Assembly (NCBI GenBank): GCA_947504725.1
Contig: CANNHN010000002.1
Location: forward strand, 124,001-188,000
Origin: Bacteroidota bacterium
Lineage (GTDB): Bacteria; Bacteroidota; Bacteroidia; 2-12-FULL-35-15
Direction of reading: 5' to 3'
Length of the DNA stretch: 64,000 nt
The notes beneath the pieces are model-generated. The model saw nothing but the letters and a program-made list of their open reading frames with translations. It was not told the origin of the DNA and did not search any database. This document shows positions 34,456-47,771 of this stretch, one piece after another; position 1 is the stretch's first letter, and the number at the start of each line of letters is the position of its first letter. Position numbers and translations under genes: made by a program.

Positions 34456-37400
34456 CTAAATTCTAATTCCAATTACTAAAATATCATCAATCTGTTCTAA
34501 ATCACCCATCCAATCATTAATTGTTTTCGATAAGATCACTTGTTGTTTATCCATCGGAAGTTGGTGATTCGTCATCAATATTGATTCGAATTGTTTGTAT
34601 TTATACTTCTTTCCTTTGGGTCCGCCAAATTGATCTGCAAATCCATCAGTAAAGATATAAATGCAATCACCCTTTACTAATTCGTATTCGTGATTACTAA
34701 ACTTTTGAAGTTCTTCACCAACAAAAGCACCAATTGGAAATTTATCCCCATTGATTTGAATCATTTTATTATTGCGAATAATCCAAAGAGGATTGTTTGC
34801 CCCTGCAAACTCAATTTTTAATTTTTTAAAATTTATTGCAATCAACGAAATATCCATTCCGTCTCGAACAGTTGCTTCTTCGGGATCTTGATTTAATTTT
34901 TTTGAAAGTTGTGTATTCGCTTCGTTTAATATCAATGCTGGTTTTGAAAGCCCAAGAACATTTACAGTTTGAGTTAAAATATTATGACAAACAATACTCA
35001 TAAATGCACCAGGAACACCATGACCTGTGCAATCAACTGCTGCCACTAATGTTTCATTACCCCAGCGCTCTAACCAATAAAAATCACCACTAACAATTGC
35101 TTTCGGTTGGTAAAAAACAAATGATTCATTTAACGATTGTTTGATAAGTGCATCTGCAGGAAGAATTGCTTTTTGTATTCGTTTCGCATAATGTATACTA
35201 TCTGTGATATCCTTATTTTTTCCATCAATTTCAGAATAGGCTACTTGTAATTTTTCTTTTTCTTGCAGTAATTCATTTGTTCGAATAGCAACTTGCTCTG
35301 CTAATAATTTTTTTGATTGTCGCAGGTTCCTTGTTCGTGCCTTAACGCCTATAAAAATACTTCCAACTCCAGCCACGATTGCAAAAACAAAAAACCATGG
35401 ACGTTTCCAAAATGGAGGAATAATTTCGAATGAATACGAGACGGGGCTTGAATTCCATATCCCATCATTGTTACAGGCTTTTAGGATAAATGTATATTTT
35501 CCTGGGGGCAAATTGGAATAGGTTGTACTTGTTTCTTTCCCAACAGGTAGCCAATCTGAATCAAAGTTCTCCAACATAAATTGATACTTAACTTTAAACG
35601 GATTAGTAAAGGAAATTCCAACAAAATCAAATGTAATATGGTTTTTATCATATGGCAATCTAAGATTTTGTGGAAGACCATTTATCGTACTATCGCAATA
35701 CTTTGAAAAATCTACTTTTTCCAAAAACAAACGAATTCCATTAATGTGGGTTTGTGCTTCAATTCGATTTCTTCGTTCATGTTTCGAATCGTAAATTGTA
35801 ACTCCTCCGATTGTGCCTATCCAAAACTTTCCATCATTATCTTGATAGAAGGCATTTTGATTGCACTCTAATCCTATAAATCCATCTTCTTTACCATAAT
35901 GTTTTAAAACAATTTCCTTTTGATTTACCAATTGACTCAAATCTAATTTATCAATTCCATTATTTGTTCCCAACCACAAAGCGCCTTCATTATCTGGATG
36001 AACATAATAGACCATATTGGAACTCAATCCGTCAATTTCTGAAATGGTTCGAAAAACTTTTCCATTATAAACACAAGCCCCAGCATCTGTACTAAACCAC
36101 ATGTAGCCATAATTATCTCGTGCAATATTTCTAATTTTAGAAAACCCTTCCGGACGCGTTAAACTCGAGAACTTTTTCCCATCATATTTCACAATTTTGT
36201 TTGGACTTCCAAACCATAAATATCCCAAGTTATCTTCAAAAATAGCATTTACACCTTCAGTAAAAATTCCTTGCTCTCTTCCAAATAAGCTAAACGTTTT
36301 GCCATCGAATTTATCTAGACCGTTTTCATGAGCAATCCAAACATTTCCCTTTTTATCGACTAACAAGGCTGAAATATGAGATCCATGCAGCCCTTCCTTA
36401 ATATGATAATTTTTAAATGTTTTTCCATTGTAAACACTCACTCCTGCCGCAGACGTTCCGAACCAAATATTTCCTTTTTTATCTTCGCAAATTGCCCAAA
36501 TATTATTAAAAGGTAATCCATCTTTTTCTTTCGAAAAATTTTGGAATATGATGGTATCACTTTTTTTCCAAGCATCATAATCCAATCGAGAAACACCACC
36601 GCCCCAAGTTCCAATCCACATATTATTTTTGCTATCCTTACAAAAAGACATGATCGTATTGTTGGCCAACCCATGATTCTCATTGATGTTCATGAATAAA
36701 TCATTTCTGTATTTATTTAAACCACCACCAAAAGATCCCAGCCAAATATTGCCTTCTCTGTCTTGCGTGATTCCGCATACCATGCCGTTAGACAAGCCGT
36801 TAAATTTTGTGATTTTTTTCGATTTACTGTATTTAATTTGACTTGCACCACTGGATGTTCCTGCCCAAATTACTCCATCACTATCTTTAAATAACCTGTA
36901 AGTCCCTTCTAAAAAAGGTTTGCCATTTACTTTTAAAGTGTCAAATTTATGCTTCCCTGCATAATTTTTTGAAAGGTCATAAACACTTATCCCACGATAA
37001 GTAGAAACCCAAACCTTATCATCATTAATTAATATGTCTCTGTTTTTGGGATCTAGAAGTCCGTCATTCGTTCCAAAATGAATAATTGATTTCCCATCAT
37101 AACAAAACACACCATTTGGAACTGTCCCTATCCATGTATTTCCCAGCTTATCTTGAACAATACTCCATACCTGATAATGCCCAATAGAATCATTAAAAAC
37201 AAATGGAGTAATTTTTTTCCCATCGTAAATCATGATTCCATCAGAAGTACCAAGCCACAATTCTCCATTAGAATGCTCATGAATACGGTAAATCGTTAAT
37301 TTACCAAGAACAGAATCCTGAACATTTGTAATTTTGTTGTTCGAAAAAAGGTTGAGTCCTTTGGATGTTCCTATCCAAATATTCTGTTTTGAATCTTCGA

Positions 37401-37665
37401 AAATAGCTTGTACTCGATTATTATTTAGCCCATCTTTCGCGCCAAGGGTCTGAAATTTTTGACCATCATAACGACTAACGCCACCACCATTTGTTCCAAC
37501 CCAAATAATACCGGTGTGGTCCTGAAAAACATCATTGATTTGGGATTGAGGTAATCCATCATCGATTGAAAAGGATTTTATATCAAGTTGTTGAGCCTTT
37601 GTGAATAGGCTTAGCCCAAAGAATAGGCATAAATAAAGAAGTATGTTGAGTAATCTCCAATTCAC
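34456..37665 (-). CDS. Beta-propeller sensor SpoIIE-type protein phosphatase
   Basis: 1069 residues. Signal peptide ending KAQ, then about fourteen two-component-regulator-type propeller repeats (about 35-640; IWVGTNGGGVSRYDG-like units) forming two seven-bladed propellers. A Y_Y_Y domain (about 660-745, with PPGKYTFILKACNNDG), a membrane helix (about 756-775) and a cytosolic coiled coil with NKDITDSIHYAKRIQKAILP follow. The PP2C/SpoIIE domain (about 850-1069) has SGDFYW, DCTGHGVPGAFMS, IFTDGFADQFGG and IDDILVIG. The sensor half matches that of hybrid two-component regulators, but the output is a phosphatase. It is followed, one base after its stop, by the LD-carboxypeptidase. Confidence 0.93.
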   Translation of the reverse strand: MNWRLLNILLYLCLFFGLSLFTKAQQLDIKSFSIDDGLPQSQINDVFQDHTGIIWVGTNGGGVSRYDGQKFQTLGAKDGLNNNRVQAIFEDSKQNIWIGTSKGLNLFSNNKITNVQDSVLGKLTIYRIHEHSNGELWLGTSDGIMIYDGKKITPFVFNDSIGHYQVWSIVQDKLGNTWIGTVPNGVFCYDGKSIIHFGTNDGLLDPKNRDILINDDKVWVSTYRGISVYDLSKNYAGKHKFDTLKVNGKPFLEGTYRLFKDSDGVIWAGTSSGASQIKYSKSKKITKFNGLSNGMVCGITQDREGNIWLGSFGGGLNKYRNDLFMNINENHGLANNTIMSFCKDSKNNMWIGTWGGGVSRLDYDAWKKSDTIIFQNFSKEKDGLPFNNIWAICEDKKGNIWFGTSAAGVSVYNGKTFKNYHIKEGLHGSHISALLVDKKGNVWIAHENGLDKFDGKTFSLFGREQGIFTEGVNAIFEDNLGYLWFGSPNKIVKYDGKKFSSLTRPEGFSKIRNIARDNYGYMWFSTDAGACVYNGKVFRTISEIDGLSSNMVYYVHPDNEGALWLGTNNGIDKLDLSQLVNQKEIVLKHYGKEDGFIGLECNQNAFYQDNDGKFWIGTIGGVTIYDSKHERRNRIEAQTHINGIRLFLEKVDFSKYCDSTINGLPQNLRLPYDKNHITFDFVGISFTNPFKVKYQFMLENFDSDWLPVGKETSTTYSNLPPGKYTFILKACNNDGIWNSSPVSYSFEIIPPFWKRPWFFVFAIVAGVGSIFIGVKARTRNLRQSKKLLAEQVAIRTNELLQEKEKLQVAYSEIDGKNKDITDSIHYAKRIQKAILPADALIKQSLNESFVFYQPKAIVSGDFYWLERWGNETLVAAVDCTGHGVPGAFMSIVCHNILTQTVNVLGLSKPALILNEANTQLSKKLNQDPEEATVRDGMDISLIAINFKKLKIEFAGANNPLWIIRNNKMIQINGDKFPIGAFVGEELQKFSNHEYELVKGDCIYIFTDGFADQFGGPKGKKYKYKQFESILMTNHQLPMDKQQVILSKTINDWMGDLEQIDDILVIGIRI

Positions 37666-43616: not shown

Positions 43617-44600
43617 ATGAAAACTCATTTACGAAACATTTTCGGACTTCTTCTCCTTTCAAATTTTTCGTTTTCACAACAAGTTCCTGCTGTAGAAGAA
43701 AACATTCCATTTTTAGTAACCTTCGGAAAAGAAGGCGATAAATCTTGGGGAGATGATGATTTTTCTCAAACCTACTTCTTTGTTGTACCAAAGTTTCAAG
43801 TGACACCCATTTATATTCGTGTTTTTGATGCAGAAATCAGTGCTGATTTTGATGAAAAAAAAGGAGAGTATAATACAAAAACTAAATTTTCGGTTTATGG
43901 AGGGAAGGAAACATTCACGAATAAAGATGTTCGATTAAAAGATCCTGCTGGAAAATACAAAAGTGGAAACTTACTTGCAACTAAAACATTCGTAAATAGC
44001 GATGTATATGATGGAGAATGGTATACGTTCGCCCCTTTTAATCCATCCGAAGGAGAATTGGTATCAGAATACGGAGGCTATATCTTTAAAATTATTTCAG
44101 AAGGATTAAGTGGAGATGATGGAAACCTTTATAAATACTTCCTGAGTTCATCACCTATCGAAAATAAAGCTATTGAAGGCGGAAATGCTTTTACATTTGA
44201 GTTTACCTTCAGATTGTCTGACAATCAAAAGGATATTGCTCACCTTTATCCTTATGTTGAACAAAACGTTTACTCTGTTAGGATTTCAAATTTTGATTTT
44301 GATTTTGATGGGCAAGTCAATATTGTATCAATGGCGAAAAAAGGCGAACTTGGCAAAGCGTCAGGAGATAATGTTTGGGAAAACACAACTCATATAATAG
44401 TGGAAAAGGAAAAAAAGACTACTCTTGATGTTCAATTCATAAAAAACAAAAAGGTTCATATAAAAAATAACAATGTTACACTCTATGTTACTAACCAAGA
44501 TGGAAATTTATTACCAATATACACAGTTCCTATAGGCGGAGTGCCTCAAAATAACAGTAAAATACAATTTAAACAAAAGAAAAAAACAACTCCATATTAA
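43617..44600 (+). CDS. Secreted protein of unknown family paired with a sensor-phosphatase
   Basis: 327 residues, not recognised. Signal peptide ending FSQ at about residue 21. The mature protein is Gly/Asp/Lys-rich and looks beta-structured, with repeated segments such as PFLVTFGKEGDKSWGDDDFSQTYFF, TPIYIRVFDAEI, DVYDGEWYTFAPF and RLSDNQKDIAHLYPYVEQNVYSV. The tail is Lys-rich (QKKKTTPY). It lies 18 bases before the TTG start of the next sensor-phosphatase gene, so they are probably cotranscribed from the -7 element at 43603. A ligand, inhibitor or envelope-stress reporter for that sensor is possible, but this is inference. Confidence 0.75.
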   Translation: MKTHLRNIFGLLLLSNFSFSQQVPAVEENIPFLVTFGKEGDKSWGDDDFSQTYFFVVPKFQVTPIYIRVFDAEISADFDEKKGEYNTKTKFSVYGGKETFTNKDVRLKDPAGKYKSGNLLATKTFVNSDVYDGEWYTFAPFNPSEGELVSEYGGYIFKIISEGLSGDDGNLYKYFLSSSPIENKAIEGGNAFTFEFTFRLSDNQKDIAHLYPYVEQNVYSVRISNFDFDFDGQVNIVSMAKKGELGKASGDNVWENTTHIIVEKEKKTTLDVQFIKNKKVHIKNNNVTLYVTNQDGNLLPIYTVPIGGVPQNNSKIQFKQKKKTTPY

Positions 44601-44618
44601 GATTATACTCTAACGCTT

Positions 44619-46691
44619 TTGAAAAAATTATTTGCAATATATATAGGTTTTTTAGGAGCGATACTCTTCCCTTCATTTTCATACTCTCAAGCTTACCAAA
44701 TTAGAACCTACGGAATTGACAATGGAATTACTCAACCATATGTTTACACCATCAACCAAGACAAAAAAGGATATCTCTGGGCAGGAACTGGCGATGGAGC
44801 CTGTAAGTTTGATGGAATAAGTTTTAAATCATTTTATACGAATGATGGATTCGCTGAAAATTTTGTTACTACAAGCTTAAAAGACAATCAAAAAAATTTA
44901 TGGATTGGACACAACCAAGGAGGAATTACTTTTTATGATGGTAAGACATTTAAGATAATTAATACGAGTGGATTTACTAAAAGCCCTGTTACTTCTATTA
45001 TTTCCGATGACAAGGGTGGCGTTTGGTGTGGGACTTTAAATGATGGCGTATTCCGAATAAGCAAATCGTTTGAAGTAGAGGTATTTAAAATGGAATTTAA
45101 TCAATTAACTGTTTTTTCTCTCGCCAAAACAAAAAACAATCAATTGCTCGTTGGAACTGGAGACGGATTAATGCTATTTGATTTGATAGGAGAAAAACGA
45201 AAGCCCGTTTTTTTAAACAAAATTAAGTCTGTTCCAGAAACAAAAATTCAATGCATCGTTAAAAAAAATAACTCGCAAAGTTTCTGGATAGGCACAGAAG
45301 ATGAAGGATTATTTCTATTAACCCCAGAAACTTTAAATAGCAAAAACTTCAAATCGACATCAATTGGAAATAATTTATCGATTAAATTCTCAAACATCCA
45401 AGATGTGTATGAAGACAAACTTACAAACCTATGGATTGCAACTTTTGGCAGCGGTGTTATTAAACTAACGTTTTCTACAAACACTGTAAAGTACGATGAG
45501 ATTATACAATTTTCTGAAGAAAATGGACTTGGGAACAATTATACAAAAACTATCTATTCAGATCACGAAGGAAATATCTGGGTCGGAACATATGGTTCTG
45601 GGCTCGTTCTATTGCAGGACAATTGTTTTACATTCTATACTCATTCAGAGAAACAGTATAGCAACAATGTTACTTCTATATTAATTCAAGAAAAAACAAA
45701 ATGGTTTGGTGTAGAAAATGGATTAATAAAAATAGACTTATTCTCAAAAACGAAATGGGAATTCTACAATAAAAAGAACGGTTTTGTGGATGATAAAATA
45801 ACTGCCCTATTTCAATCCGATTCAAATTCTTTAATAATCGGAACAAATAGTAATGGTGCATATAAAATGGACATTGAAAAAAAAACGTTTTCAAAAATAT
45901 CATTGAATGACGATCAATTATGCAAATCCATAAATTCTATTACAGGAAATAAAGATGTTATCTGGATTGCAACAAAAGGAGGAATATTTAAACTTGAACC
46001 AAAAGCAAAAATCTCTACTCATTTCACTACCGAAAGTGGATTAACACACAACAATATCAATCAAGTTATCTTAGGTTCAGATAATAGACTATGGGTTGCA
46101 ACCCACAGTAACTATATTTCATATATTGACTCACGGGATGAAATAAAAAACATTCTAATATACAAGGGGGTTGATTTAATTAATGTTACGGGGATATTAC
46201 AAGACCATCAAAAAAACATTTGGATCGCTACCCTAGGAAATGGAATATTTAAAATTAAAGATACAATCGTTGCAAAATACACGATAGAAAAAGGATTAAA
46301 ATCAAATTACTGTTATAGTATTATTGAAGATGGGTCACACAACATTTGGATTGGACATCGATTAGGACTAAGCAGAATAAAAACTAAAACAAGCGAAATT
46401 GATGTTTTTGATAAAAATGAAGGAATACTTGGCGATTGTAACACTACTTCTTCCTTTACAGATTTTGAAGGATATACATGGTTTGGAACAACTATGGGAA
46501 GTGCAAAATTTGATCCGCATAAAGAAGTAAAAAACCTAACTCCTCCAATAGTAAATATTACTTCTTTTAAAATTAATGACAAAGAAATAGATTTCACAAG
46601 AGACACGATTTACCCTTATGATGATTATCGATTACGAATCGATTTTGTTGGTATAACTTTTAAATCCAGTACACACGTCCAATTCCAATAA
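44619..46691 (+). CDS. N-terminal fragment: beta-propeller sensor region
   Basis: 690 residues from a TTG start that gives a good signal peptide (ending SYSQ). It carries the propeller repeats: IRTYGIDNGI, GYLWAGTGDG, NLWIGHNQGG, NIWVGTYGSG and many more, up to WFGTTMGSAKF. It stops at the premature TAA just inside the Y_Y_Y domain. Without the following helix and phosphatase it would be an exported, soluble propeller. It starts 18 bases after the unknown secreted-protein gene. Confidence 0.75.
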   Translation: MKKLFAIYIGFLGAILFPSFSYSQAYQIRTYGIDNGITQPYVYTINQDKKGYLWAGTGDGACKFDGISFKSFYTNDGFAENFVTTSLKDNQKNLWIGHNQGGITFYDGKTFKIINTSGFTKSPVTSIISDDKGGVWCGTLNDGVFRISKSFEVEVFKMEFNQLTVFSLAKTKNNQLLVGTGDGLMLFDLIGEKRKPVFLNKIKSVPETKIQCIVKKNNSQSFWIGTEDEGLFLLTPETLNSKNFKSTSIGNNLSIKFSNIQDVYEDKLTNLWIATFGSGVIKLTFSTNTVKYDEIIQFSEENGLGNNYTKTIYSDHEGNIWVGTYGSGLVLLQDNCFTFYTHSEKQYSNNVTSILIQEKTKWFGVENGLIKIDLFSKTKWEFYNKKNGFVDDKITALFQSDSNSLIIGTNSNGAYKMDIEKKTFSKISLNDDQLCKSINSITGNKDVIWIATKGGIFKLEPKAKISTHFTTESGLTHNNINQVILGSDNRLWVATHSNYISYIDSRDEIKNILIYKGVDLINVTGILQDHQKNIWIATLGNGIFKIKDTIVAKYTIEKGLKSNYCYSIIEDGSHNIWIGHRLGLSRIKTKTSEIDVFDKNEGILGDCNTTSSFTDFEGYTWFGTTMGSAKFDPHKEVKNLTPPIVNITSFKINDKEIDFTRDTIYPYDDYRLRIDFVGITFKSSTHVQFQ

Positions 46692-46781
46692 AAACTCGAG
46701 GGATATGATGTTGACTGGTCTGACAAAACGAACAATGCATTTGCACAATATGGAAAATTAAGTGAAGGCGAATACACTTTT

Positions 46782-47771
46782 TTGTTACGAGCATACAATA
46801 AGGATGGTATATATAATCAATCTCCCTTTAGCATTAAAATAAAAATTGCATTGCCAATTTGGAAGCGTGCTTGGTTTATAATTTTGTGTATTGCAATAGT
46901 GATTTATGGATTCTATTTGATTTTAAAAATCAGAGAACGTAATCACAGGGTGTTTGAGATTGAATTAAAGAAAGCATTAAATGAAAAAACGCGAGAAGTA
47001 ATTTTTCAAAAAGAGGAAATTGAAAAAAAGAACAAAGATATTACCGATAGTATTCGATATGCGAAACGAATTCAAGATGCAATACTGCCAGAGTTACAGA
47101 CATTGAAAAATTATATCCCCGAATCATTTATCTTTTTTCAACCCCGAGATATAGTAAGTGGAGACTTTTATTGGTTCCACAGATTTGGAGATTACCTTGT
47201 TCTTGTTTGTGCCGATGCAACAGGACATGGTGTTCCTGGAGCATTTATGAGTATGATTGGAAGCACCTTGCTGAAAGAAATTGCAGCTCGAAAAGGGATT
47301 GACTCACCTGCTTTTGCGCTTGCACTATTAGATGAAGAAATAAAAATATTATTAAAACAAACTGACAGTGAGCATCATCAAACACAAGATGGTGTCGATG
47401 TAATAATTTGCGAAATAAATTTAAAAACGCATTTTGTTAGAATTGCTTCTACGAAACGACCAATTATTATTTCTAAAGACAACGAATTAGTTGTGCTAAA
47501 AAAAGACAATACCGAAACCCAACAATACGAAACAAAAGACATTCAATTATCTAAAGGCGATACATTGTATTTATTCACAGACGGCTACTCAGATCAATTT
47601 GGGGGGGACGAAGGCAAGAAAATAAAAATTGCAAATGTGAGAACATTACTTGACGACATTAAAGAACTTCCGATTCCAAAGCAAGAAATGATTATTGAAA
47701 AATATTTTAATGATTGGAAAGGCGGCTACGAACAAATTGATGACGTTCTATTTATGGGGTTGAAACTTTAG
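46782..47771 (+). CDS. C-terminal fragment: Y_Y_Y end, membrane helix, linker and SpoIIE phosphatase
   Basis: The open frame resumes at 46692; the first ATG-like start gives 329 residues from 46782. It contains a membrane helix (RAWFIILCIAIVIYGFYLIL, about residues 29-48), a coiled coil with NKDITDSIRYAKRIQDAILP, and the complete PP2C/SpoIIE domain with SGDFYW, DATGHGVPGAFMS, LFTDGYSDQFGG and IDDVLFMG. The catalytic half is intact, so if translated on its own it would be a sensorless phosphatase. No start signal of its own is evident. Confidence 0.7.
   Translation: MLRAYNKDGIYNQSPFSIKIKIALPIWKRAWFIILCIAIVIYGFYLILKIRERNHRVFEIELKKALNEKTREVIFQKEEIEKKNKDITDSIRYAKRIQDAILPELQTLKNYIPESFIFFQPRDIVSGDFYWFHRFGDYLVLVCADATGHGVPGAFMSMIGSTLLKEIAARKGIDSPAFALALLDEEIKILLKQTDSEHHQTQDGVDVIICEINLKTHFVRIASTKRPIIISKDNELVVLKKDNTETQQYETKDIQLSKGDTLYLFTDGYSDQFGGDEGKKIKIANVRTLLDDIKELPIPKQEMIIEKYFNDWKGGYEQIDDVLFMGLKL

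Follow-up and report, generated by a model that had tools for sequence, protein, structure and literature searches.

A private in-frame TAA at a conserved tyrosine codon of a propeller-SpoIIE sensor phosphatase gene in a Bacteroidota genome

Results

The window analysed here is a stretch of 64,000 nucleotides from a Bacteroidota genome, and all coordinates without a contig name are positions in it. On its plus strand the frame from 44619 to 47771 comprises 1050 codons and a terminal stop, and its translation contains one internal stop, a TAA at codon 691, which is the sole interruption of a frame free of frameshifts. The features of the locus are as follows.

43617-44600, plus strand: uncharacterised exported protein of 327 amino acids, adjoining the phosphatase gene upstream
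44619-46688, plus strand: sensor half, with a signal peptide-like N-terminus, Reg_prop beta-propeller repeats and the first Y_Y_Y strands
46689-46691, plus strand: private in-frame TAA, codon 691, at an otherwise invariant tyrosine of the Y_Y_Y domain
46692-47771, plus strand: second half, with the remainder of Y_Y_Y (Pfam positions 13-64), a transmembrane stretch, a coiled linker and a SpoIIE/PPM phosphatase
46782-46784, plus strand: TTG, the first and only early ATG, GTG or TTG codon past the stop, 30 codons in

An earlier note on this DNA had claimed that the frame is open apart from the TAA and that the two flanking halves hold register and motifs. The translation bears out the first point, and the second agrees with the Pfam matches, which place Reg_prop upstream of the TAA and Y_Y_Y (from model position 13) and SpoIIE downstream with the register maintained, and with the phosphatase motifs GDFYW, D-TGHG, TDG and DD, which are conserved and intact in the second half. 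Propeller, Y_Y_Y domain, membrane helix and phosphatase are thus all in register here but split by the TAA, and they lie in one frame in 14 orthologues. Because the 1050 codons align over their full length to relatives without a frameshift, a chance reading frame is excluded. The start codon of the full gene at 44619 is a TTG, found as the same TTG in 12 of 15 sequences; this conserved rare start may hold down expression of the phosphatase gene.

The orthologues come from a search of 58 relatives, in which the gene was present in 14 genomes, all of the same genus; the named relatives are metagenome-assembled Bacteroidetes, one of them from Lac Pavin, and no second genome of the source species was found in a scan of the named genomes. 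Against the sensor half the orthologues show 57-79% identity. The earlier note had proposed a comparison of the locus in close relatives, and in this comparison every orthologue is uninterrupted at codon 691 and encodes tyrosine there (TAT in 11, TAC in 3), so that the TAA is private to the source genome. The ancestral codon was therefore one for tyrosine, from which TAA differs by a single base, as the note had supposed in placing the stop one substitution from TAT or TAC. Its further claim that the stop occupies an aromatic position of the Y_Y_Y domain also holds, since all six full-length paralogues compared carry tyrosine or phenylalanine at the site; among them the paralogue at 34456-37665 on the minus strand has phenylalanine (KYQ-F-MLENFDSDW). 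None of the 14 orthologues has a split gene or a stop at this locus. Conservation of the stop in relatives together with a good start for the second half would have spoken against a lesion, and the stop is conserved in none of them; its absence from the orthologues leaves standing the readings in which it is fresh. A stop missing in the orthologues and lying at a conserved sense codon, the pattern by which a recent nonsense pseudogene is recognised, is what the locus presents.

Both halves of the gene are still under strong purifying selection. A purpose-written codon model applied to seven taxa gave an omega of 0.029 for the whole gene, and a branch model gave 0.038 on the source-genome branch versus 0.028 elsewhere, a difference that is not significant (2dlnL 1.6); with the halves tested separately, 2dlnL was 0.6 and 1.3. 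Adding a tail of neutral evolution to the source-genome branch for the whole gene worsened the fit as the tail lengthened, with 2dlnL of -2.3 for a tail of 0.02 substitutions per site and of -7.7 for one of 0.033. Neutral decay since the stop arose is bounded by this profile at about 0.025 substitutions per site, or about 1% of the branch, a bound that leans mostly on amino-acid changes, with rough branch lengths, because synonymous sites are near saturation (pairwise dS about 2). The branch model and the neutral-tail profile together rule out an old pseudogene. With both halves constrained and the phosphatase motifs intact, the stop is either very young or absent from the organism.

Discussion

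Our preferred interpretation, which we consider probable, is that the TAA is a real, recent and private point mutation, or a strain polymorphism, that converted the conserved tyrosine codon of a propeller/Y_Y_Y/SpoIIE gene into a stop; we infer in this case that the stop is physically present in the organism and terminates translation efficiently. The earlier note had left three readings side by side. Two of them, a fresh nonsense mutation and an assembly or consensus error, both fit the data, since the stop is private and lies one base from a tyrosine codon, and selection on the gene is not measurably relaxed. The third, in which sensor and phosphatase are now made as separate proteins, fares poorly: there is neither a good nor a conserved internal start, and no relative is split.

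The gene would be intact in the organism if the TAA came from a mistake in consensus or assembly, or from a minority allele that the assembler retained, and we hold this to be possible, though clearly less probable than a genuine mutation. Such an origin would account for the fact that neither half shows any sign of relaxed selection, and a pseudogene called from an internal stop in a draft assembly is often an error, spurious stops being common (PMC11017572). The source genome also contains further lone stops in otherwise clean genes. A scan for same-frame pairs separated by one stop covered 740 kb, about 22% of the genome and partly picked around SpoIIE paralogues, and contained two clear cases, the TAA at 46689-46691 and a TGA on contig C1 at 17701; a third case is known on contig C19. 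The C1 case is a private TGA in a repeat protein (G000 C1, L072 17701-17703) where relatives have glycine or alanine, and two relatives 85-90% identical to this protein are open at the site with glycine. The C19 case is a private TAA within the phosphatase domain of another SpoIIE paralogue (G000 C19, L010 2089-2091, minus strand), at a site where the orthologues are open and carry lysine, aspartate, glycine or asparagine. The remaining same-frame pairs in the 740 kb look, by eye, like tandem genes or intergenic continuations. Applied to 400 kb of G033, a sister genome, the same scan, also judged by eye, gave no clear single-stop case, a difference in the direction expected of base errors that carries no weight given a small sample selected in part for its SpoIIE genes. 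A rate of about 2-3 such stops per roughly 0.75 Mb is, however, compatible with a real background too, and the assembly itself (43 contigs, 3.40 Mb) is 99.6% complete with contigs up to 626 kb. That at least two more intact genes each carry a lone private stop points to background nonsense or base-level error and to nothing specific to this gene. The private nonsense codon is confirmed but is an ordinary event, whether mutation or error.

That the stop is functional, with the halves produced separately by a restart or the stop partly read through, we regard as improbable. Sensor and phosphatase halves do both still look constrained, and in-frame stops with low dN/dS have been described as widespread among bacteria (PMC7918605), but the constraint and the low dN/dS are equally expected of a stop that arose too recently to show its effect. 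In the second half the first ATG is codon 185, already within the phosphatase domain. The TTG at 46782 corresponds in orthologues to TTG, TTA, CTA, CTG, CAT or GTT, and this variability marks it as an ordinary coding position and not a conserved start. Nothing stands out in the RNA folding near the stop (z -0.45), which gives no structural signal, and a split or stopped gene would be unprecedented among the 14 orthologues. The specific version in which the TAA is real and tolerated, the cell making and using both the exported propeller fragment and a phosphatase that arises from its own start or from rare readthrough, is in our view very improbable. Reassignment of TAA to an amino acid in the source organism, to which the internal TAA codons of two SpoIIE paralogues might seem to point, can be dismissed, since most of the coding-like frames sampled (145 of 206) end in TAA, most other one-stop pairs restart right after the stop as tandem genes do, and the sites match tyrosine in one gene and lysine, aspartate, glycine or asparagine in the other.

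If the point mutation is genuine, translation would end after residue 690 and yield an exported propeller fragment of 690 residues that lacks the membrane anchor and the phosphatase. This one phosphatase would be lost or nearly so, the rest of the gene having had too little time to decay, and many SpoIIE paralogues are still present in the genome. The SpoIIE phosphatase domain is matched over most of its length at about 30 places in the 3.4 Mb genome, a very large set. By homology of its domains (PDB 4a2l and 3v9f for the sensor, 6k4e for the phosphatase), the intact protein would link an exported propeller sensor and a Y_Y_Y domain through a single membrane helix to a PP2C-type phosphatase in the cytoplasm, whose target, judging from the families involved, is presumably a partner-switching anti-sigma antagonist. 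Taken alone the stop has little significance, representing at most the very recent loss of one of many paralogous sensor phosphatases, or a base error. Its practical consequence is that gene callers will divide the gene in two, and neither half is to be read as a designed protein. Were the stop real and tolerated, it would offer a natural test of propeller sensor function without its phosphatase.

The exported protein encoded at 43617-44600 is likely an unnamed partner of the propeller-SpoIIE sensor. It has no match in Pfam, NCBIfam or PDB, and each of the 14 orthologous loci carries its orthologue directly upstream of the phosphatase gene. A second pairing of an exported protein with a propeller-SpoIIE protein is found elsewhere, for example on contig C10 of the source genome (G000) and in three other genomes (G009 C6, G018 C12, G028 C156). 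In one further genome (G031 C311; L051, L065) the upstream exported protein is apparently frameshifted, with two overlapping matches in different frames.

Comparison with known systems

The same combination of propeller and Y_Y_Y periplasmic sensor is found in the Reg_prop/Y_Y_Y sensors of Bacteroidota, the ectodomains of hybrid two-component systems, and the sensor described here matches two of their structures, PDB 4a2l and 3v9f, at 4.8e-43 and 8.6e-40; the first also matches the Y_Y_Y remnant downstream of the TAA. Whereas the output of the hybrid two-component sensors is a histidine kinase, here it is a SpoIIE phosphatase, in a copy that carries a stop. A literature search found no work on the Reg_prop-Y_Y_Y-SpoIIE domain architecture. 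The phosphatase domain resembles the SiaA/SpoIIE family of PP2C phosphatases, with matches to PDB 6k4e at 6e-29 and to NF038263 at 2.2e-49. The sensor domain of SiaA differs from that of this protein, and the score against the NF038263 equivalog model, 168.6 of 700 bits, falls below the curated cut-off, so the protein is not SiaA itself. As a lesion, the locus has its closest counterpart in the single-nonsense or spurious pseudogenes of draft assemblies (PMC11017572), with which it shares a lone internal stop in an otherwise intact gene whose relatives are intact, and from which we saw no differences.
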